A DNA stretch of 64,000 nucleotides from Entophlyctis helioformis. Lineage: Eukaryota > Chytridiomycota > Chytridiomycetes > Chytridiales > Chytriomycetaceae. The DNA is taken from assembly GCA_025526915.1 (NCBI GenBank), contig JAHLKH010000018.1, forward strand, positions 142,857-206,856, in the 5' to 3' direction. The position numbers and the translations under genes were made by a program. Position 1 is the first letter of the stretch. Every line of letters starts with the position of its first letter. The notes below the pieces were generated by a model that had not been told where the DNA came from, searched no databases, and saw nothing but the letters and a program-made list of their open reading frames with translations. This document shows, piece after piece, positions 48,516-63,348 of the stretch.

Positions 48516-50408
48516 TTAGGTCGATCGGGAGGTGCCCCGATTCAAAGTGTTGGTGGTGGTGCTGGAAGTCAGAGCATGTGGAGTGGCACTTGACTTGCTG
48601 GCACGCTGTCTGCGTGTTGGACGCTGCTGGTCGACAGGCGGATCCGGTGCTGGAGGCAGCTGGACGACAGGCGGATCCGGTGCTGGACGCCGCTTGATGG
48701 CACGTCTTGGGCGCTGCTGGTCGACCGTCGGATCTGGTTCTAGACGTCGCTTGATGGCGTGTCTAGAACGCTGCTGGACGACAGGCGGATCTGGTGCTGG
48801 AGGCTGCTGATCAACAGGCAGATCGACTGGCGTGTGTGTCAAGTAGAGCAGCCGTTGTCCAAAAAGCAGATGCTCCAGTGCGACCATTCCGATGTTGGTG
48901 GCTCCAAGCACATCGCGGTGGTAGACAGTCTTGCATGGTATGCACTCGTAGCGTCGCAGGTTGGTGCGGTTCTCGTATGGGATACGCTGCTTGCACTGCG
49001 GGCACATCTGGCTGGTCAGGTTCTCGTTGCAGCGGTAGATCTGTGTGTGTGTGTGTGTGTGTGTGTGTGGTCAGTTGGTGCACAGATGGATGGATGGATG
49101 GATGGCGTGGCATCAGACGCACATAGGCATATCCAGACGACCGCAGATGCCTGATGAGAAACTTCTCAAACACAGCGTGCCGGCCACCTTGACCTGTAAA
49201 GTCAATGCCAAATGCCCACACAACGGGAATGTCCTTCTCAGGGTTGCTGACAGGGAGGCCTTGAGATGCACGAGATGCGCGATATCTAGTCTTCGATCCT
49301 GCCAGCTTCATGATGCCCTCAAGAGCCTGTCCGCGATCAGACGTGCGGCTGCTGCACATGGCAAACCGCTTGTCCTTGACCTTCTGTGGAATGCCATGTC
49401 ATGCCATGCCATCCAGTGTGATCAGCAGGCAATCAAGCAGTATGGCGGCCATGTCAATGGGCATCCAGAAACAGAGAAAACGTACCCGTGCATTCAGGAA
49501 TGGCGTGCAGTATGCATGGCAGCGCAGATCCCAAAAGGCTCTCTCGCCTGCTGTGGCGTTTGGATCGGCATGCTTTGCTGTCTTGAATGCAATGGCCTCG
49601 TGGACGTCGGACGCCTTGGCATATCGATTGTTGAGCCTGGCACAAGAGGCGGGCACTGTGAGTTGATCTGGTCAAGAGTGCACGTGGCAGAGTCATTGCA
49701 TGCATACCACCGCTGAAGGTCACGCTCAGCATGAAATACGCCAGACGAGAGCACATAGTTGGACTCGAGCTTATACGAAAAGTCCCTAAGGTCGACCAAC
49801 ATGCTGGACGCGCCATACAGGTACCGCTCGCCCCAATCAAAGCTGACAACGCGAACAAAGTCCTTGTCGGCGAGCAGCTTGTCGGCATCAGCAACATCGG
49901 GCAGTCGCTGCGAGGCGTAAAAGTTGCACTTGACCTGTCATGCCATGGCATGAGTGAGGAATGTGCAATGCATGTGCACCAATGCGCGAGGTTGGCATGC
50001 AAGTGACTTACAGGATTGGGCGTGTATGGCTTGGTGGCTGATGAGTCGGCTGGATCGGCAGCTGTGGATGGCATGTCAGTTGGTGTGGTCAACAAGTGCT
50101 CGTCTGGATTGGCACAGCAACTCACATTCGCCATCCAAGCCATCATCCAAGCCATCATCCAAGTCATCGTCATCCAAGTCATCATCCAAGTCATCGTCAT
50201 CCAAGTCATCATCATCCTCAATGTGACTGAACTGCTCGTCTGAAGTCGCCGCGTTGGGACCTGCAGAGCAAGGCAGTGGTCAGAATCAATGCGTGCACCA
50301 CAGCATCCAAGCACGCCACATACTGCGAGGTGACTTTGGACGGTTTGTGCGAAACTCCAGAACAGTTTGAAAGACACTCTTCCCGTCGGTCTTGATGCTG
50401 CCAAATCT
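48516..50408 (-). pseudogene. Fanzor-like (eukaryotic TnpB-family) RuvC nuclease, 3' part, separated from its 5' part by a copia insertion
   Basis: The spliced reading continues from the 5' part as FGSIKTDGKSVFQTVLEFRT. An exon with an aspartate-rich run (50110-50222) follows, then RVVSFDWGERYLYGA, whose Asp (49836-49838) fits RuvC-I. The next block reads ARLNNRYAKASDVHEAIAF after a probable intron near 49660-49730. Then come KVKDKRFAMCSSRTSD, VVWAFGIDFTGQGG, an intron containing a CA/TG microsatellite, and CNENLTSQMCPQC. The zinc ribbon closes with CIPC before HRDVLGATNI, the RuvC-III motif (Asp 48912-48914). These features in this order define TnpB/Fanzor. A tail of Pro/Gln repeats with AIKRR basic clusters ends at 48516. 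Introns rule out bacterial contamination. The gene is broken because its N-terminal exons lie beyond the retrotransposon. Confidence 0.85.
48615..48830 (-). repeat. Tandem degenerate repeats coding the Fanzor C-terminal tail
   Basis: Imperfect units of about 60-75 bp (CTGCTGGTCGACAGGCGGAT-like) encode repeated PAPDPPV-QQ blocks alternating with basic AIKRR or TRRQR. The basic clusters are candidate nuclear-localisation signals. Confidence 0.65.
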
Positions 50409-50870
50409 TGTCAAAGGTAGGTACGTACGGGTTGCTGATCCAGGAACCAGGAGCTCGGGAAGTGGGTGATCTGCTTGAGAGACGACGAGAGAAGCGAGAT
50501 TCAATGAGTTGAAGATTGAAATGTGACGGTTGGGATGTTATTGAGAGTAGAGCTAGAACTGCCAGCTTTTATAGCCGAGCAGCAAAGAAAAGTGAGAGAG
50601 TCACATGGAGACACAGAGTGGTAGGATGGGCGAATCAGAGAGAGGGAAGAGAGCATGCAGGTGAACGTGCTGCATGTGGGAGAGTGATTGGTGTGTGTGT
50701 GGAGGATCGAGGACCAGTGGATTGAGAGTGTGCGATGGAGAGTGGAGAGTGTGTGATGGTGGTTTCTTGACTGGTGCACGTGAAAGTACGCCTCTGCATG
50801 AGTAATGCGCGTGCGGCGAAACTGGCTTGTCCGCCCGTCATATGAACCAGAAATGACGCGTCGTCCAACA
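50409..50870 (-). repeat. copia LTR (3' LTR in element orientation)
   Basis: 462 bp, starting TGTCAAAGG and ending TCCAACA on the plus strand. It reads identically to 53861-54322 in every stretch compared. An internal AGCTTTTATAGCC (about 50566-50578) may be promoter-like. Confidence 0.95.
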
Positions 50871-50890
50871 CCCCCCCTCGAACGTGGTCG

Positions 50891-53213
50891 TCAGTCCTTG
50901 AGGCGCAGATGCTCGCGAAGACTGATGAACGCGGGCGTCTTGACGCACTTGGTGAAGATGTCGGCGACCTGATTGTCGGTGCGGACGTAGGCCATCTTGA
51001 TCAGACCCTTGGCATTGTCAGCGTAGCCGAGCATGACACATTCCATGGCGCGAGGCTGGAGCTTGTTGTTGGAGCCGTCAATGATCGTGGCGTGGGCAAG
51101 ACAGCCGATGGCGCGAAGACGATCGTAGTTGGGCGAGCGGCCGTGGTAGAGGTTGAACGGGACGCGGCCGTTGAGAGATGAGTGAGGCAGTAGGTTCTGC
51201 ACAGTCACGACCGTGCGGGCGATCTCGGCCCAGAGCGATGGAGGCAGGCCAGAGTCGATCAGGATCGTGCGCACCGCGTCAAAGACAGTGCGGTTCTTGC
51301 GCTCAACGACGCCGTTTTGCTGGGGCGAGTAGCCAACGGTGTTCTCTTGGTGGATGCCAACCGAGGCGTAAAACTCCTTGAGGTTGTTTGACTGGAACTC
51401 GCCACCGAGGTCGGATCGGACGCGCTTGACTGGGCATTCGTGAAGCACCTCCGCTGCCTTGATGAGCTTGGGCAGGGCGGTCGACACGTCCGACTTGTGC
51501 GCGAGTGGAACGAGAGTCGTGAAACGCGAGAAGTCATCAATGGCGAGCATGTAGAAGCGCGCGCCGCCCTTTGATGTGACTGGCTCTGGACCGCCGAGAT
51601 CAACATGGAGCAGCTCGTTGACTTTGGTGGTCTTGGATGACGACTTCTGCGGGAAAGGGAGACGTGGTGCCTTGCCGAGAGAGCACGAGAAGCATGACAG
51701 TCCGCCGGCGTTGGAAGGAAGATGAACGGCGGGCTCAGAGGCTGACAGACGCCGGATGCCGTCGAGATGAAAGTGGCAGAGACGGGCGTGCAGAGTCTCG
51801 ATTGATGCGGACGCGTGTGGCTTGGCACGTGCGACGGTCGCCAGGGCAGTCGACCCCTTGGAGAATGGAACAACCGTGCACTCGATGACGTTGAGATGGC
51901 CTTCTGTCTTGGCCTTGATGATGTCAACATCCTTGCACGTGATCTTGAACGCGGAGGCGTCGATGGAGGCGCTACAACCGCTGGCAATGAGCTTGTTGAC
52001 TGAGACCAGATTGAATCGTGCAGATGGACAGAGAAGGACGTCGGACAGCTTGACGACTTGGGTGCCGTTATCGATGGTGCACTCGAGGATCAGAGAACCG
52101 GTGTGCGAGACTGGAATGGTGGTGCCGTCAAATGAGGTGATGTGGCGCGAGGTACCGGCCGGGACTGGAGTCAGATCATGGAGCCATTCCTTGCGACAGA
52201 CAATGTGCGACGTTGCACCAGTGTCCGCGATGAGTTCCGACGAATGACTGCGAGAGCTGTCGGATACGGCAAAGCTGTGATCGACCATGACGTTGACGTT
52301 CCCCTGGCGATTGCCGTGTTGGCGACTCTGAGAGCGAGTGTAGGGCCTCGAATTGCCTCTGGCGCGTGGACTGTTCCTGGTGTCTGGTGCGGCGCCACTT
52401 CTGCAGTCCTTGGAGAAATGCGAACCGAGCTTGTGGCATGACTTGCAGTGAATCACCGGATTGCCGTCCTCAAAGCGACTGATGATCTGATCGTAGACGG
52501 GGTCGGACAGAGGCGATGCTTGGCCGGTGGAAGCGACGGCGGCGAAGGCAACTGCTCCACTGGACGACGCGGCGCCAACTCTTGGCAGGGAGCCGGACGC
52601 CATCATGACTCTTTCCGCGTTCTCGAGGAAGTTCCGCAGGAGAGAGACTTGGGTCGGAGCGATGGCTAGGACTTGACCCCATGCTGTGATTCTGGAAGCG
52701 GTGATCTTGCTGACGACCATGGTGCACCAGACCGGATCTTGGTAGACGATCTGGGCGGCATGTAGCTTGCGCCGGGCGTGCTCCATCTCCGAGTAAAAAT
52801 GGGCGATTCCGAGTTCCGTTGTGTAGCTGACGGATTGGTAATGCTCCTGGGCTGCAATGTGGTCGTGGATCGTCATGCAGGCTTCCTTGAGGTCAATCCA
52901 TGCTTGATACATCGGCTTGACGTGCGAGTTCATGTCGAGAATGATGTCGCCAAACAGTTTGGGGTTGACCGAGAGGGAGAGGTAGTTTCGCAGCTTGTCA
53001 TGGATGATAGTGTTCGCCGATGTCTCGGGGATCTCGTTCGGATTGGTTGAGTTGGCACTTCCGAGAGGCTTGACAAGGAAGTCCTCGCCACTGATGGCTC
53101 GAGCTGCGACGAGAAAAGAGTCCGAGAACTGCGCGTAGTCCTCCTTCTTGGCCAGGCGAAAGATGGCTGTGCCATGTGGGAATGCGGCATATGGAACTGA
53201 CGACGAGTTCATA
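50891..53213 (-). CDS. copia Gag-protease-integrase polyprotein, RT/RNase H missing
   Basis: Likely start MNSSSVPYAAF at 53213; the frame is also open upstream into the leader and LTR. In order: Gag (KKEDYAQFSDSFLVAARA, YQAWIDLKEACMTIHD); a zinc knuckle (CKSCHKLGSHFSKDC, one residue longer than the usual C-x2-C-x4-H-x4-C); an aspartic protease with LIADTGATSH; a GAG-pre-integrase region (LHARLCHFHLDG, CFSCSLGKAPRLPF); and an integrase with the D,D,E residues in LLHVDLGG, LAIDDFSRF and PQQNGVVERKNRTV. After MECVMLGYADNAKG the frame continues straight into LIKMAYVRTDNQVADIFTK, normally the RNase H C-terminus. So the reverse transcriptase and most of RNase H were removed without breaking the frame. 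The copy cannot reverse-transcribe itself and would depend on enzyme from another copy. Confidence 0.9.
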
Positions 53214-53860
53214 GCGGCGAAGGAGACTGTTGCGAGCGGCTTTGAAGGATTGCCGGGACGATGGGCGCTGACAGATCGGAGTCTGCAGATTGCGGGCGTG
53301 AGGCGAACCGGCGACAGACACGGCGGCAAAGAAGTGGGCGATCGCTGGTCAGATGGAGTGCTGGATGGCGGCAGGACACTCGGGACCGATACGATGCAAG
53401 TGGAACATACCGAGAAGTGGGTGATCAGTAATGTATCCACTGGGTCTGCGGCCGAGAAGATGCCGAGCAGGGGTGCGCAGTCTATGGCCGACAAATGGCC
53501 AGAAAGAGCATGCGACCATCGGTCGTGAGGCGACGAGATCCCGAACGAACCAAGAAGGTGGTTGGGACCAGATCGACCACAACCAGACGATGGGACAACA
53601 TCACAGTCCGGGCAGGGAACAGTGCGAGTGTCAACCATCGTGCCATTATGCCAGAACATCCACCGGACAGGGTGATGGGAGGCCACAACGGCATGGCGAT
53701 CGCGAGCCGGGATCAACAGTGCTCCGTTGCAGGCGAACATGACCACGGCCATCACGAACGTGTGGATCATGGGTGCGACAGGCAGCAACTGTGATAACAG
53801 GCAGGCGAGCAAAGGGGAGCCCAAGGGACTGGGAACCAGCACAGGTTTGTGCTGATAACG

Positions 53861-54322
53861 TGTCAAAGGTAGGTACGTACGGGTTGCTGATCCAGGAACC
53901 AGGAGCTCGGGAAGTGGGTGATCTGCTTGAGAGACGACGAGAGAAGCGAGATTCAATGAGTTGAAGATTGAAATGTGACGGTTGGGATGTTATTGAGAGT
54001 AGAGCTAGAACTGCCAGCTTTTATAGCCGAGCAGCAAAGAAAAGTGAGAGAGTCACATGGAGACACAGAGTGGTAGGATGGGCGAATCAGAGAGAGGGAA
54101 GAGAGCATGCAGGTGAACGTGCTGCATGTGGGAGAGTGATTGGTGTGTGTGTGGAGGATCGAGGACCAGTGGATTGAGAGTGTGCGATGGAGAGTGGAGA
54201 GTGTGTGATGGTGGTTTCTTGACTGGTGCACGTGAAAGTACGCCTCTGCATGAGTAATGCGCGTGCGGCGAAACTGGCTTGTCCGCCCGTCATATGAACC
54301 AGAAATGACGCGTCGTCCAACA
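53861..54322 (-). repeat. copia LTR (5' LTR in element orientation)
   Basis: 462 bp, apparently identical to 50409-50870, followed by the right copy of the AATCT target duplication. Confidence 0.95.
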
Positions 54323-57300
54323 AATCTGACCGACTTGGTTGGTAGCACTTGAGGAAGAGCATCAACCTCGGCCTTGATCACGTCCACCGACTGCTTGTCG
54401 TCCAGTTGAAGATCGTCAGCCTTGGCTTCTTGTGTCACATCAGGAGTTGCTCCGGCCTCTTCCACGGTGTCGGCTGGGTCAATCTGCAACTTGGCCTGTG
54501 CTGGCGTTTGATAGCGCCGTGTATCGGAGGCGAGTCCAGGGAGGAGGAGATCCATGACGCACAGCTCGTCACTTGAACTGAACGCCTTCTCGATCTTGTC
54601 ATTGGGCAATGCAAGCTCCGAGTCTTTCCAGTTAAGCTTTTTGAGAAGCCAGCCAGGATCTTTGAGAAGAGTGGATTGTTAGCATCAAATCATAAAAAGA
54701 TGGCATAGACAGGCAGTGTGACTGACTTATGGCAGCAAGAAGCTCCGATCTCAATGCTCGCAAGACGGGATCTTGTGACTTGCTGATGTGATCCCTTTTC
54801 AGCCCCATAACCGCCCAGAAGAGGACGGTCTCGGTGATCAGAACAAAGGGATCACGACTTGCCGCTTGAGGACAGAGCTTGATGCTCTCTCTTCCAGCGA
54901 GATCGCGCAGCTGCTTGAAGCGTCCAACAGTCGACAGCGACATGTTGCGTATGATGGCCACGAGCTTGTGCAATGCTGGCGGGGTCACAACAGTGCTCTT
55001 TTTCCCTGCGGCGTCCTTGGCGGCCGGCTTCTTGCCGCGTGCCTTCTTGGTCGCGCCGCTCTTGTCAGTGGCCGACGATGAGCCTGACTGGCCTCTCTTG
55101 TTGCTTGGCGCAGGAGGGGTGGTGTCAAGATCAGCCGACGATGGGTTTGGCGCTGCACTCTTGCGCCTTGCTCTCTTGGGTTTCGTCGGGCTTGACGCGG
55201 CGTCCTCAGTGCTTGACGCCACATTCGTTTGTCTCCCTCTCTTGGCCGCCGATGGTCTTGGCGCGGTGTCCTTGGCAGCAGCAGCCTTGGCGGCATCGGC
55301 TTCCTCGAACAGGGATTGAACCAACTCTTTCGCCTGCTCGCGAGACATTCCGGGAGCAAGCTTGATGGCTGCACCAACCGCCAGGTCGAATTGATTTCCA
55401 ATGTAGTGCCGCGCGAGTATGGTGCTCACCTCTCTGGCAAGGTTGTTGAAGATGTCGCTAGTTGCGCTCCCACAGAGAGTGTCGTCCAGGCGGTATGGTA
55501 GAGCTGCCTGATACGTGACGTCCTGTTGCATGTCCGTCTGGATTGTGTCGGCCTGCTGCGCGCCATTCTTGTCCGCGTACATCTTGTCCGCACTGGCCTG
55601 CACCATCCCGCGCGTCCATGCACGGTGGATCATCAACTGCATGACAGTGACAACCCATGCATTGATCGTGTCCATGTCATGCTGCGGCTTGGCCATCTCC
55701 TTGCCGGTGAAAATGTTTGAAAGGTGGCGAAAGATGCAGGCCACGGTTGTCTCACCACCCGAGGTGCTGTTGATGAGTGCCGTGAACAGCTGGTTGGATG
55801 TCGGCACTGTTGGTGCTGCTGCTGCAGGCTGCTCAGGCTGATTGGGCTGCTTGTGCAGACAGATCTCGAGTCTTGTACCCGTCGCCAGTTGCACCAGATG
55901 GCCATACCGAGGCTCCTTGCTCTTGTGATTGTACAAACTCGAGCCGTACATGAGGCGGGCAGTGACGTCCTTTCCGAGGGTGAATCGACCCGAGAAGAGC
56001 TCCGCCTTGGTCACGCCGCCGAGGCCGTCGATGCTGGCATGGTCGCCGAGGTCGTCGATGCCATTGAAGTCCAGGTCCAAGAAACAATACCGCGTCGTCT
56101 TGCCATCAAGCCACTTGTAGACGTGGTACTTGGGCGGGAGCAGGGCATCCGCGTCGAGATCGAGTAGCTCTTCGACGATGGCGCCAATCACGACGAACCC
56201 AGCATGCCGAAGACCAACGATGAATGAGTACACCTTTACGAATGTGTCCTCGATGATCAGACGCCGCGTCCATTTCTTTGGCGTCTTCCTGGCTTCGATG
56301 CCATAGACCTTGGCACTTCCTGGATTGCCCGACAACATTTTCTGCACACCACGCCAACCTCTGAGTCAGTCCATGCAAAGTCATGCATGCAGGCAGAATG
56401 GCAATCCTAAATCGTACCTCAAGCAGCACTCTCGCGCCATGATGATCAGGTTCGTCCACAGCAGGCTGATCTGGCGCATCCACAGCAGGTTGATTGGTTG
56501 CTTGCTCTGCCGTTTGTTGATCATTGCTGCCGATCGCCGCAGAGAGGGACATGAGTGGCCCTGTAACAGTGCGACCCAGTTTTCGAATCAGCAGATGTAG
56601 TGCCCATCGTGAGCGACGCACGATTCTGCCAAAACACGCATGTCAGCAAGAGTACTCAAGGCAAATGGCACAGCATACATCACTTACCCCTGTCTCGAGC
56701 CACCAGGCAAACTACTACGGGCAAACCGGCTTGACTTTCCCTTGTTGGCCTTGATGGCCTTCAGTGTTGCGGCCTTTGCAGCTTGCAATGCGCTACTCTT
56801 CATGAGCGCGGCCTCCTGCTTCTTTGTGAATTGAAGTCGTGGCTGTGGAGGTTGGATGCAGCATGAGCAATGCATTCCGAGTGCACACAATGCATATGCA
56901 AGCACCAATGGTACATCAGAACTAACCGTCGTCTTGGTGTCTAAATGTCGATTGAGAGAAAAGACCACGGGCTGTACTTCTTCTGCCTGAGCGTCAACAG
57001 ATGGCTGTGGTCGCTTACGCCGCTTGCGCCGCTTTGGAGGCCGAGCCTCCTGCCAATTGGAGAAATGAGTGATCGTGACAAGTCAGTACATGCCCACACA
57101 GACAGTCAAGATGAAGACGCACCGAGGCTTCCTTGATGATCGACTCTAGCAGTTTGATGGCCTCATTCAGCTGCTCGACAAGTGTCACTGATTCGCCATC
57201 CGTGCGAGATTTCAGGTTGTTCAGCCGTTCGGTGGCCTTTCTGTGGATCTTGGCCAAGGATTTCTGGGGATCGTCCTGCTTGATGACCTTGCCTTTCTGC

Positions 57301-57915
57301 TTGCCTTTCTGCTTGGGCTTTTGCTTGCCTTTCTGCGTGCCTGGCTGCGTTATTGGTTCTTGAGTATCACATTCAGCATAGAAGGTGTTGTCAGTACATG
57401 GCGTCGAGTCATTCCAATGCAAGCCAAACGTACGTGGAGTTGAAATATCCTGAAAGGATACACAGCAAGGATTCACAATTTTGCCCAGCTGCACCTTCAT
57501 CCTCCGAGCGGCACCCTGTCCGATGCACAGCGGATTGAGTTAGACAGTTCAAGGTGAGAGATGCACATGCATCCAAGTCATGCTGCAACGTACATGTGTG
57601 TCCCAAACAAGCCGATCAAGTCGACCAAGCTCTGCGCGTACTGTCGGTAAAAGGGATTGCTCACGGACAAGCTCCAACAGCTGCGCACTTGCTGTCCTGC
57701 TGATCTTGGCTAGAATATCTCGGCCCGCGACTCCATCGGGGTTGCGAGCGAGGTAACCTGGCACGTGCTTGACAATGCAGTCGAATGCAATCGGACATCG
57801 CTTGACCTCGTAAAAAGTTGTGGCCATTTCACCGTTGTTGACAATCTTGTCGAGGTGCCCGTCGATATCCTTCTGCGTCAGGTGCACAATGTCGGAATCA
57901 GGATTGCGTTCTTGC
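54323..57915 (-). pseudogene. 5' exons of the copia-interrupted Fanzor gene (unassigned N-terminal region)
   Basis: A minus-strand series of exons leads into the insertion point. About 57.55-57.91 kb reads WQERNPDSDIVHLTQKDID and FYEVKRCPIAFDCIVKHVPG. About 57.13-57.51 kb carries GKQKPKQKGKQKGKV and a helical EQLNEAIKLLESIIKEA. About 56.94-57.07 kb has a nuclear-signal-like KRRKRRKRP. Next comes a Lys/Ala-rich exon near 56.7-56.85 kb, then a long exon, 54.73-56.35 kb, with GIEARKTPKKWTRRLIIEDT, RYCFLDLDFNGIDDLGD and a basic Ser/Ala/Lys linker. The last exon runs NPGWLLKKLNWKDSELALPN to LPQVLPTKSVRF, where AATCT and the LTR interrupt it. Removing the element gives RF-GSIKTDGK in frame, which ties these exons to the RuvC part. 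No domain was recognised here. Whether the first exons belong to this gene or to the upstream FEN1-like gene is open. Confidence 0.65.
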
Positions 57916-58159
57916 CACTTGGAGTGTACAAGGAGGCAGCCAGCAGATGAGCATCTGCACCATGATGCATTGATGACATCAAAGACAGGAACGCAGAGTC
58001 AGCAATGTGAGAGACTTCAAGAGATCGCATGCATGCGTACCTTGGTTGAGCCGCGGCGGTCGTGTTGGCAGCCTGGCTGCTGTCATTGCCACGCAGCAAT
58101 GGATGGTCAGTATGGTGCTATGCATGCAAATGCATCTACAGTGCCACGTGCTTGGCCAG

Positions 58160-59546
58160 TCACGCAATGACTTGCCTCTGCCCTTGCACATCGCCAGATT
58201 GACCGTTGTTGCTGCTTGGGGCTTTGAACTGGCTGGCAATGTTTCCCGACTCGTCGTGGTACACGAAAACGGAGAAGGCGTTGAGGAACGACTTGACGAG
58301 GTCCTCGCCTCCGATCGCCAACAACTCGTCAGAGTAGGCGGCCCTGACGTCCTTCTTGAAGTCACTGGCAATCTTGGGGGTGTGGAGCAGGGCACAGAAC
58401 TCCTCCGGCGTGATATTCCTCTTGTGCGCCGCCTCCTCGACGTACCTGTTGACGGTGTTGACGGCGGTGCGCAGACCTGCAAGACGATGTGAGTAGCAAC
58501 ACGTGTTAGTCAACACCACAGTTTGGACGACAATACAGAGCATCAAGACAGGCATTGCACGCACCACGCCCGTAGCAATCGAAATAGTCACTCTTGCTCA
58601 ACGCAACCACAAGCTGGCAAGCTCCAGGGAATTCGTATACTCCGAGGGCAGACGCAAGAGATACGATGCCTGAATGGTTGAAAGACCGCAGGTTGGTGGC
58701 CTCCGCGTTCCGCGTGGACATCATGATGACAGGACAACGTCCAGCACAGTGTGCCACGAGATCAGAGTCGTTACAAATGACGGCAATGGGAATGTTGCTG
58801 CTGCAAGACAAAGACTGTTAGCCGTCAATCGAAACAGACAGTTGCCATGGCGATCTATACCTTGGCTTGCTTGCATGGTAGGCTACATGGCGGGCAATGC
58901 AAACGTCCGCTTCGTGCTTGCACCAGCATACTGCACGCCGCGGCTCAGAACTGAAGATCTCTGCGATCGCCTCGTAAATCAGCTGCTTGTCATTGTGCGT
59001 GAGCGTGAACGAGAGCAGCAGCGCACGCTTCTCTTTCCTGGATCATTGGCTGAGAGTTAGAATCGCCTTGATGCGGCAGGACAAAGTGGACATACTTGGA
59101 TAAGCGCTTGTATCTCTTGCGTTTGCGGCGTCTGCGAATACACCGTAGAACTGTGCCCACCGCATTCAGGACCTTGATCGCACGGCCCTTGTGGACAATC
59201 TTAATCCCAGAGTCGCCAAGCCTGCCGTCAACGTGGAACATGTAGGAGTACTCGGGGCCAAACTTGTCCGTGAACGAGCTGAGTACCGGCTTGAGGATCG
59301 GTATCCACTCGGCCTTTGACAATGGGTGATCGGACCCTCCTCTCCTGAAGTGCGGAAAACACACACTCATCACATCACAAGGAAAGCGCCGCAGTGGCTG
59401 GGTGTGGCCGTGTTGGTGTCGCTTGGATCTTGTGACAGTCGTGCGCTGCCAAGCACAAGCTTTGACACCAAGGACCAGGGCACGTCCTTGTGTACGCTGC
59501 CGCCGCCATTCTCCACCACGCATGAAACAACCGCAGGGACCCCCAT
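58160..59546 (-). CDS. FEN1/XPG-family (PIN-like) nuclease
   Basis: Structure-specific nuclease fold. The probable start at 59546 gives MGVPAVVSCVVENGG; Met-Gly at position 1-2 is typical of the family. Spliced exons then show YSYMFHVDGRLGDSGIKIVH (Asp of the FEN1 VFDG motif) and a basic arch-like segment, CIRRRRKRKRYKRLSK. Next is WCKHEADVCIARHV (the EAEA-equivalent acids, near 58900), then IAVICNDSDLVAHC (the ED-x-D pair, near 58765) and ALSKSDYFDCYGRGLRTAVN. That last motif is the GCDY Asp followed by a helix-two-turn-helix. The first metal-binding Asp (FEN1 D34) was not located; it may be in a mis-joined exon or lost. A stop lies at 58160, but a splice to the following exons (WQERNPDSD) is also possible, which would fuse this nuclease to the Fanzor. 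A long TG array lies just upstream. Confidence 0.72.
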
Positions 59547-61737: not shown

Positions 61738-63348
61738 TCAGAACAGCGTGCCGTCGCTGAGCACGTCAATGGGCGGCCCGCACGTCGCTGGCCGCAGCTT
61801 GGCAGCCATCTCGCGGCCAGCCTTCCACGTCCCTGCACGCTCAGCCACGTTAGTTGGTCAGCCAATCCATGCATCGATCGACCCATCCATGCATGCAGTC
61901 ACATCTGGCTCACCAGCTTCAAGAACCTTGGCAAGCGGCAGCTCCTGCACGCTCATGCCGAGCCGCTCGCGAACCATGTCGGCAACGCGGTCGAGCAGCG
62001 CAACCGTGAGCCCGCGCCACTCGACCACCACGTCGTCGTAGGCCGCAAACTTGGGCACCGTGTCGCCCAGCGCGTTGGACGCCGTGCCGCGCTCAACGTC
62101 TGCTGCCCGCAGCACAAGGACGCCGGCATCGACAAACAGACCGCCGTTGCGGTACTCGGCGAGGCCGGTGAGCGCATCGACACCCGAGACGGTGATGCCG
62201 GCAAGCGTGAGCGGCTCAATCAGCGAGTACGTGAGCCACTGCGACAGCTTGTGGAACGGCAGGAGCCCCAGCGCATCGGCCTGCTGGGCAGCCTCGACGT
62301 GTGACGCGGGCGAGTCAGGAGCGACATGGTGCACCAGCCGTGCTGCAGTGTCTTTTTCTGCTGATGGCGCGACAGACTTGGCTGCTGCTGATGATGATGA
62401 TGTTGATGATGTTGCTGGATGGGCAAGAGCCGTGCATGGCCACACATCGCCCAGCGACACGCCGTGGAGAGCCGTGCGTGACGGCGGCCAGATGCCGGCA
62501 AAGCCGCGAATGACCACGTCCCACAGCGCGTCAATGTGCACCACAGGCAGCCCGTCAGCACTCTGTGTCGTGGACGGGTGGGCCAGCAGAAAGTCGAGCA
62601 GGTTTCCGGGCCGCGCGGGAGCGGCAGCGCCACTGCCGGCCGCGCCGCCAAAGTAGACGGGATGGGCAGCACACACGTCGCCGAGCCGCTGCAGCAGCTG
62701 GCAGCGGCCCTCGACGCCGACGAGCGGGTTGGTGTCCGAGACCTGCAGCGCCGAGCGCAGCTTGTCGGGCGTGAGGGCACGCAGCCCGTCGGCGTCGACA
62801 CGGTGCGGCAGGCCAGCAGCCGCGGCCGACGAGAAGCCGCCGGCGACAAACCAATCAAACGACGCGACGCCGAGGCCCTCTGAGCGCGAGTAGAACGAGC
62901 CGGGCGGCAGGTGCTCAGCTGCGGGGCGGTACTTCCACTGGGCACCTGCGCCGGCATCCAGCAGCACCGACACGACAAACAGGTCGAGCAGGCGGCGCAC
63001 GGTCTCGAGGGTGTCGACGCCTGCGGCCTTCCACGCGGCGACCAGGGGCGAGATGCGGTCGATGGGCGGCAGCTTGGGTGCCGGTGCGGTGGACGGCGCG
63101 ACGGGAGCGGCCTCGAAGTGGCGCCAGCGAGAGTGCGGCGGGATGGCGGCGGGCGAGGCGTAGTCGCGGGCAATGAGGGCGAGCAGCGAGTCTGCGACGG
63201 CGGGCAGCCTGGCGAGCACCACGTCAAAGTGGGCGAGGGCCGACGGCGGGGCGGCCAGCAGCGCGTGGCAGCGCGAGCGGATGGCGGGCAGCGACTGCAG
63301 GTAGCGCACGACGGGCGGGCGGGGGTCGGCGGGGGCAGCGCCGTTCAT
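61738..63348 (-). CDS. URC4: URC4-like (DUF1688) uracil catabolism protein
   Basis: Member of the DUF1688 family, which includes URC4 of the uracil-degradation pathway; its biochemical step is not settled. Two exons (intron 61833-61913, 81 nt) from 63348 (MNGAAPADPRPPV). The family pattern is complete: YLQSLPAIRSRC, IPPHSRWRHFEA, VVSVLLDAGAGAQWKY, FYSRSEGLGVASFDWF, NPLVGVEGRCQLLQRLG, ARPGNLLDFL, PFHKLSQWLTYSLIEPL, TGLAEYRNGGLFVDAGVL, VVEWRGLTVALLD and, across the intron, LEAGTWKAGREMAAKLRP ending SDGTLF. Full length is about 509 residues. It has a Ser/Ala-rich insert near 62350-62440. It is divergent from a GMC oxidoreductase and about 22 kb from URC1 and UPRT. Confidence 0.95.

Follow-up and report, generated by a model that had tools for sequence, protein, structure and literature searches.

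We analysed a window of 64,000 nucleotides of DNA at the right end of contig C18 from the chytrid Entophlyctis helioformis (order Chytridiales), whose genome comprises 29.6 Mb in 482 contigs. On its minus strand the window contains one copy of a DNA transposon with terminal inverted repeats (TIRs) that carries XPG/FEN1-like exons towards its 5' end and exons for a Fanzor1-type protein towards its 3' end, and that is interrupted by a copia-type long terminal repeat (LTR) retrotransposon. The copy, which extends from 61716 to 48278 (13.4 kb with the retrotransposon), belongs to class I of two classes of such elements; its 5' end reads GAGGGGCAGGCAATT... and its 3' end ...CCTATTGCCTACCCCTC. Paralogues were compared using a set of 20 loci and seven upstream pieces, and RuvC sites and selection were counted over 33 loci.

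An earlier note, made from the letters of the window, had described a Fanzor gene at 48516-57915. In particular, the motifs that it named were all found on the minus strand, with SFDWGER of RuvC-I at 49844-49824, NENLTSQMCPQC at 49028-48993, CIPC at 48944-48933 and HRDVLGATNI at 48920-48891, along with an acidic run in exon 13 (50260-50126) and a basic repeat tail. The note had regarded failure to match any TnpB or Fanzor profile as fatal to this identification; this failure did not occur, since the zinc-ribbon exon alone matched the Pfam profile PF07282 (Cas12f1-like_TNB, OrfB zinc ribbon) with an E of 1.8e-9, and the spliced C-terminal part matched it with an E of 3.5e-10 and 40.3 bits, over the curated cutoff of 26.3. 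Moreover, all seven members of an alignment of RuvC paralogues (A1) matched PHROG transposase families, and all seven gave weak matches to the NCBIfam TnpB models NF040570 and NF038281 that lay under the whole-protein cutoffs of those models. The published Fanzor1 motif, D-X(125,275)-[TS][TS]xx-C4-X(5,50)-RD (PMC3627910), fits A1, in which 188 residues separate the D from the TS and 5 residues separate the last Cys from the RD.

The RuvC-I Asp and the RuvC-III Asp were each present in 33 of 33 loci. The Fanzor1-specific Gly and Glu before the TS are each missing in 3 of these loci; in the remaining 30 the Glu was always present, and the Gly was present in 29 (this Glu and Gly were equated with E536 and G500 by eye). 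One of the four zinc cysteines was substituted in a single locus. All four RuvC exons were open over at least 90% of their length in 21 of the 33 loci, and among 210 pairs of these open loci the ratio of nonsynonymous to silent divergence (dN/dS), taken only at dS > 0.05, had a median of 0.46 and a range of 0.24-0.87. The element in the window encodes, as judged from its sequence, a Fanzor1-type nuclease.

The claim of a multi-exon gene of more than 1,000 residues was borne out by a model of 18 exons with a frame of about 1,940 codons (Table 1). The interval given in the earlier note does hold the Fanzor motifs, but it is too short at the 5' side, where the coding exons begin at 59546, and the mobile unit is longer than either. 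The introns are short (58-104 nt in the copy L013), and most of the predicted acceptors, donors and phases are retained among copies with about 63% identity over the 5' half, with exceptions in L011, L012, L014, L016 and L018. Similarly, the splice sites and frame of exons 5-10 are mostly conserved among copies that are 60-70% identical, and many changes in exon length are either multiples of three or obvious frameshifts. The exon 15/16 junction, LQRW/LNN, is identical in P0004, the public gene model of the window copy. For exon 11, Pfam gave scattered matches, each in one of four members, with no credible profile match, and a search of solved structures gave nothing credible.

Table 1. Features of the transposon copy in the window (positions are those of the window)
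Feature	Position	Strand	Remarks
Whole class I transposon copy	61716-48278	minus	homology to other copies ends there; flanks outside unrelated
Exons 1-4	59546-59096, 59037-58861, 58800-58565, 58476-58176	minus	XPG/FEN1-like domain
Exons 5-10	58079-58041, 57954-57594, 57515-57123, 57049-56927, 56842-56688, 56625-56418	minus	conserved middle region and basic linkers
Exon 11	56341-54727	minus	538 codons; from its position alone, probably the N-terminal (WED/REC) part of the Fanzor
Exon 12, upstream piece	54659-54323	minus	terminates in target-site duplication AGATT (54327-54323)
Copia-type LTR retrotransposon	54322-50409	minus	identical LTRs
Exon 12, downstream piece	50408-50324	minus	opens with second AGATT copy (50408-50404)
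Exons 13-14	50260-50126, 50061-50012	minus	exon 13 is the acidic run
Exons 15-16	49934-49708, 49636-49486	minus	RuvC-I and following region
Exon 17	49383-49123	minus	RuvC-II region (FGIDF)
Exon 18	49040-48517	minus	NENLTS (Fanzor-type Glu), C4 zinc ribbon, RuvC-III RDV, proline/basic repeat tail, stop
3' stretch resembling a non-coding RNA, putative omega-RNA scaffold	48550-48325	minus (strand and function inferred)	overlaps end of open reading frame; beside 3' end of element

Rather than the single gene that the earlier note had taken it for, the locus is cargo of high-copy TIR transposons. The RuvC-I exon was found in at least 150 places in the genome (the best 150 of 224 candidates), and PF07282 matched over its cutoff in at least 150 places (the best 150 of 205 candidates). 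The class I 3' terminus reads ...TCGGGCCATTTGCCGGCGGTTTGCCGGCATTCCCTCGCCCTATTGCCCACCCCTC, and a 33-base piece of it occurs at 53 genome sites, with 0 sites for the reversed control; class II elements start with GGCCCGGTTCTCATACCATTAC and finish directly at ...GTATGAATATCGGGCC, and a pattern for both ends found 156 sites, again with 0 for the control. The terminal repeat GGCCCGG accompanies 8-bp target duplications, which were perfect in 4 of 12 class II end pairs (CTTTTCCA, AGAAAAAA, ATAAAGTC and CAAAGCCG). The other eight pairs agreed at 7 of 8 bases (three pairs) or 6 of 8 (one pair), had the full 8-mer shifted by two (one pair) or had no duplication (three pairs), and among 132 non-cognate class II end pairs none agreed at 8 bases and one agreed at 7. 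The perfect duplications point to recent moves. Thus terminal repeats, target duplications and many copies were all found, as expected of carriage by a eukaryotic transposable element. Note that the 3' flanks of L016 and L018 are identical, and that the 3' flank of L020 and the sequence from G000:C18:109655 onward (L055) are nearly the same or identical; copies that share 3' flanks may be assembly duplicates (two assemblies of one locus), haplotypes or insertions in a shared target.

The copia insertion that had been noted in mid-exon is present: its LTRs (54322-53861 and 50870-50409) are 462 bp each with 0 differences and are flanked by AGATT on both sides, and uninterrupted paralogues, which the earlier note had proposed to look for, do exist and run through this position with no insert. 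The open reading frame of the retrotransposon (50891-53989) contains Pol_BBD, gag_pre-integrs, rve and SH3 domains, and the LTRs, the 5-bp duplication and the gag/integrase content are those of a copia-type element. Because Pfam gave no reverse transcriptase match in this reading frame, the inserted element looks like a deletion derivative, although its LTRs are identical. A recent insertion into the window copy is supported. The further claim that the allele was whole until then is doubtful. Exons 2-11 and exons 12-18 of the window copy are open, each on their own side of the insertion. Its exon 1, however, is 451 nt long (452 nt in L013 and L022, 455 nt in L023, 458 nt in L011) and begins out of frame with the remainder of the exon.

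Exons 1-4 keep seven acidic positions in the order and with the identity of the FEN1 carboxylates (HVD, HVDG, EAD, DSD/DTD and DY motifs; mapped onto FEN1 by eye), and these positions are invariant in A2, an alignment of five divergent copies whose fifth row is a composite of two copies. Over the same exons class II and class I are 26-41% identical. The best Pfam match was to PF12813 (XPG_I_2), with an E of 0.016 in 2 of 5 A2 members and not over the cutoff, and a search of the genome with PF00867 found host genes only. When compared by hhalign with the host FEN1, EXO1-like and XPG-like proteins, the alignment scored 31.5 (E 0.0017) with the DSD and DY regions in register, whereas 60 column-shuffled controls reached at most 20.1 and a reversed control 15.5; under other settings the real pair was also without signal, and the controls given here use settings that reproduce the original score. 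Those XPG-like exons that could be compared had dN/dS ratios of 0.13-0.36, several exons having been skipped owing to stops. Unlike FEN1, XPG and EXO1 themselves, exons 1-4 stay under the Pfam cutoff, form the 5' part of a Fanzor frame and are not close to the host FEN1. We describe them, by resemblance, as an XPG/FEN1-like domain and do not claim proven membership of the family. As a separate observation, L050 has a Fanzor zinc-ribbon exon directly downstream of the host's own FEN1 gene (minus strand, about 2730-1904).

The two halves of the element differ in apparent age. Between the close group of class I and class II, XPG-like exons 2-4 have diverged by a dN of 0.567 and by 0.756 per silent site, which is saturated (24 pairs), whereas the RuvC exons have diverged by a dN of 0.107 and a dS of 0.194 (36 pairs). 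Similarly, between the close and medium groups of class I the dS is 1.24 in the XPG-like exons and 0.177 in the RuvC exons. Within close groups, in contrast, both parts agree (0.106 and 0.117 in one comparison, 0.084 and 0.104 in another). A 5' half that is saturated and a 3' half that is young between the same lineages argue that the 3' module was exchanged or converted across old lineages; that is, the 3' Fanzor module has been homogenised by conversion or swapped between lineages. Within the 3' part of 33 copies (189 informative sites), the squared correlation between sites (r2) dropped from 0.31 for sites less than 10 bp apart to 0.13 at 10-29 bp and then to about 0.10, a decay that was reached by 0 of 100 permutations. 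Linkage is thus close to background from about 30 bp onwards, and all four gametes were seen in 51-59% of site pairs at least 30 bp apart. Ordinary conversion over a long time could be the source of this reshuffling; repair of Fanzor-made breaks from other copies is a suggestion. With more than 100 copies, two classes with saturated 5' halves and a young 3' module, the family is a natural record of how modules move or are converted.

We consider it likely that the window holds one copy, interrupted by a retrotransposon, of a TIR DNA transposon of high copy number with Fanzor1-type and XPG/FEN1-like exons, and that its 3' part is subject to homogenisation. Steps guided by RNA may lie behind this. 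In such a scheme the 3' stretch would serve as an omega-RNA scaffold, the guide would derive from the DNA immediately beyond the 3' end of the element, and the Fanzor would cleave DNA that matches the guide. Repair from another copy would then maintain or spread the element and convert the 3' module, the XPG-like part may process flaps or ends, and the transposase for the TIR element would probably be provided in trans. A putative role of the 3' stretch as scaffold is suggested by its position and by a variable hairpin. The roughly 209 nt that precede the class II end are conserved at 90% identity or more in the best 40 of 210 candidates, and two hairpins in the stretch are uninformative because they are near-invariant. 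The versions of a further, variable segment differ in length, and 12 variants of it were folded. Seven distinct variants were taken for a test in which their hairpin halves were recombined, and no more than 16 of the 5040 possible arrangements, counting the natural one, folded equally well, which speaks for the hairpin. (A motif resembling a splice donor, AGGTRAG, lies within the 3' stretch at 48478-48471 of the window and in 33 of the 34 rows of alignment A5; in the copies inspected by eye there is no AG between this motif and the element end, so that an acceptor would need to be in the flank.)

Several results weigh against this explanation. For the 3' stretch, two-sided changes were found in 0 of 31 predicted pairs, the folding z-scores are weak (-2.1 for L028 and -0.9 for the window), and an Rfam search gave no match. 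Of the 12 variants of the variable hairpin, the two close ones from L019 and L026 fold poorly (-1.1 and -0.8), and these two and three others were outside the seven used in the test. Moreover, the DNA of the stretch is homogenised about as much as the adjoining exons, so its conservation alone is no proof of function. Target duplications of class I were not resolved from 5 copies. Searches of solved structures found nothing credible with the XPG-like profile, and nothing credible, including no Fanzor or TnpB chain, with the RuvC profile; the predicted model of P0002, an XPG-like protein, had a predicted local distance difference test (pLDDT) score of 38.9 and no structural match with an E below 0.001. 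Database searches for relatives had limited reach and are no proof of absence in other species. Within that reach, the L016 protein (1,152 residues, with words from residues 720-1152) found nothing at an E of 0.01 among 7,991 scored entries, the C-terminal part found 5 matches (none of which contains a whole RuvC domain) and the XPG-like alignment found 3, all of them in Entophlyctis helioformis and none outside it, and among viral contigs neither the RuvC nor the XPG-like alignment had a relative.

Two other explanations concern the state of the family as a whole. One is that these elements have lost their function and are decaying repeats, with the Fanzor left as no more than a relic, and here the frequent frameshifts and stops, the 12 of 33 loci in which the four RuvC exons are not all open and the stops in the best frame of exon 11 in 8 of 12 copies other than the window are what would be expected. 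We nonetheless regard general decay as improbable, given that the catalytic Asp, Glu and Asp show no substitution wherever they were found, that splice sites are mostly kept and dN/dS ratios are as low as those reported above for the RuvC and comparable XPG-like exons, and that the perfect target duplications indicate recent moves. The other is that silent sites of the 3' module have diverged so little because the DNA as such is under selection, and not through conversion or swapping. Some non-coding sequence does seem constrained: in 8 pairs of close and medium class I copies, the introns of the 5' half (introns 1-10, window 56418-59546) are more conserved than four-fold degenerate sites, with identities of 0.78-0.81 and 0.52-0.62, respectively. 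(Frameshifts in some exons depress the four-fold value; overall exon identity is nonetheless lower too, at 0.62-0.64.) For example, intron and four-fold identities are 0.81 and 0.54 between the window and L016, 0.79 and 0.52 between the window and L012, and 0.84 and 0.72 between L012 and L016, whereas two L011 pairs inside the close group show introns and four-fold sites alike. Selection on the DNA seems to us a poor prospect all the same, as introns, silent sites and the non-coding tail of the 3' part are similar together and the site patterns are reshuffled among copies at short range.

A further question is whether the XPG-like and Fanzor parts form one protein or two. We lean towards a fusion into a single protein on account of a conserved GC donor and its phase, the conservation of exon 6 and the length of exon 5. 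The donor, AG/GCAAGT, stands at the end of exon 4 in all 10 class I copies compared (window 58175-58170) and has the phase of the GTAAGT donor that class II has at exon 4. With it, window exons 1-7, read in the frame that applies after the shift in exon 1, are open for 652 of 652 codons, and exons 2-7 of L016 for 492 of 503, compared with 420 and 290 codons, respectively, with a GT donor. We rejected that candidate GT donor for intron 4 (GTCATT, four bases downstream), which breaks the frame between exon 4 and exon 6 in copies whose exons 1-4 are intact, for example L022 and L023. Judged by eye, coding conservation of exon 6 continues as far as its splice acceptor, and the window, L013 and L016 lack an in-frame ATG ahead of that exon; the length of exon 5 is a multiple of three in both classes. 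If, instead, the element held two adjacent genes, the first for a separate XPG/FEN1-like protein of some 390 residues and the second, downstream, for the Fanzor, this would agree with the public models, which stop the XPG-like protein after exon 4 or 5 (P0001 ends ...KKRQVLA and P0002 ...ASARKK) and have separate C-terminal models. It would also agree with the TGA that all 10 class I copies have in the frame of exon 4 if intron 4 stays unspliced, and with the in-frame ATG that class II L028 has upstream of exon 6 within the modelled intron 5. Three copies do not favour the GC donor, namely L013 (whose exon 4 carries a one-base deletion of its own, and which fits the GT donor), L012 (slightly better with GT, 368 versus 358) and L018 (equal with either). 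Weighed against an exon 6 conserved to its acceptor and a GC donor conserved throughout the class I copies compared, the arrangement in two genes is a serious possibility that we hold to be less probable than the fusion. Separately, the public gene models seem to miss the GC donor of exon 4 and to end there.

Should the XPG-like and Fanzor parts prove to form a single protein, a second nuclease would be tied to an RNA-guided nuclease, which is directly testable. A bolder version, which we put forward tentatively and consider rather unlikely, is that one polypeptide of XPG/FEN1-type and Fanzor parts drives short-tract copying anchored at the 3' end throughout the family, by RNA-guided cutting of related copies, flap processing and patches of tens of bases left by repair. 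If this were true, more than 100 transposon copies would act as one recombining population.

Many features of these elements are shared with known Fanzor1 elements, for which the same motif, the zinc ribbon, carriage by TIR transposons with no recognised transposase and the sharing of a 3' module under different 5' regions (MCi-2) have been described (PMC3627910). The elements CMe-1A and CRe-1 likewise reach about 150 copies or more in their hosts (PMC3627910); high copy number with a conserved 3' and a variable 5' part is already published for Fanzor elements (PMC3627910; PMC10711439), and in a green alga a Fanzor element is the most abundant repeat (PMC12633428). SpuFz1 of Spizellomyces punctatus also has a chytrid host, a TIR element and the catalytic Asp, Glu and Asp, but it is a single open reading frame of 633 residues with TA duplications (PMC10432273; PMC3627910), compared with 18 exons here. 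By analogy with SpuFz1, the guide would be expected to come from the 3' flank. Fanzor1 proteins have 400-700 residues (PMC10432273), in contrast to about 1,940 codons here, and, unlike Fanzor1 elements, those described here have XPG/FEN1-like exons in frame, the GGCCCGG repeat with an 8-bp duplication, and very short-range reshuffling. In the literature searched, we found no paper that joins Fanzor with XPG. What is new here is the combination of in-frame XPG-like exons with a Fanzor, the terminal repeat with its 8-bp duplications and the unusually reshuffled 3' module. The role of Fanzors for their transposons has been stated to be unknown (PMC10432273).

Beyond the 5' end of the transposon copy, a host gene on the minus strand occupies 61738-63348 and ends at about 61738 (by eye); its product we take, also by eye, to be a queuosine-salvage (Qng1-like) protein.

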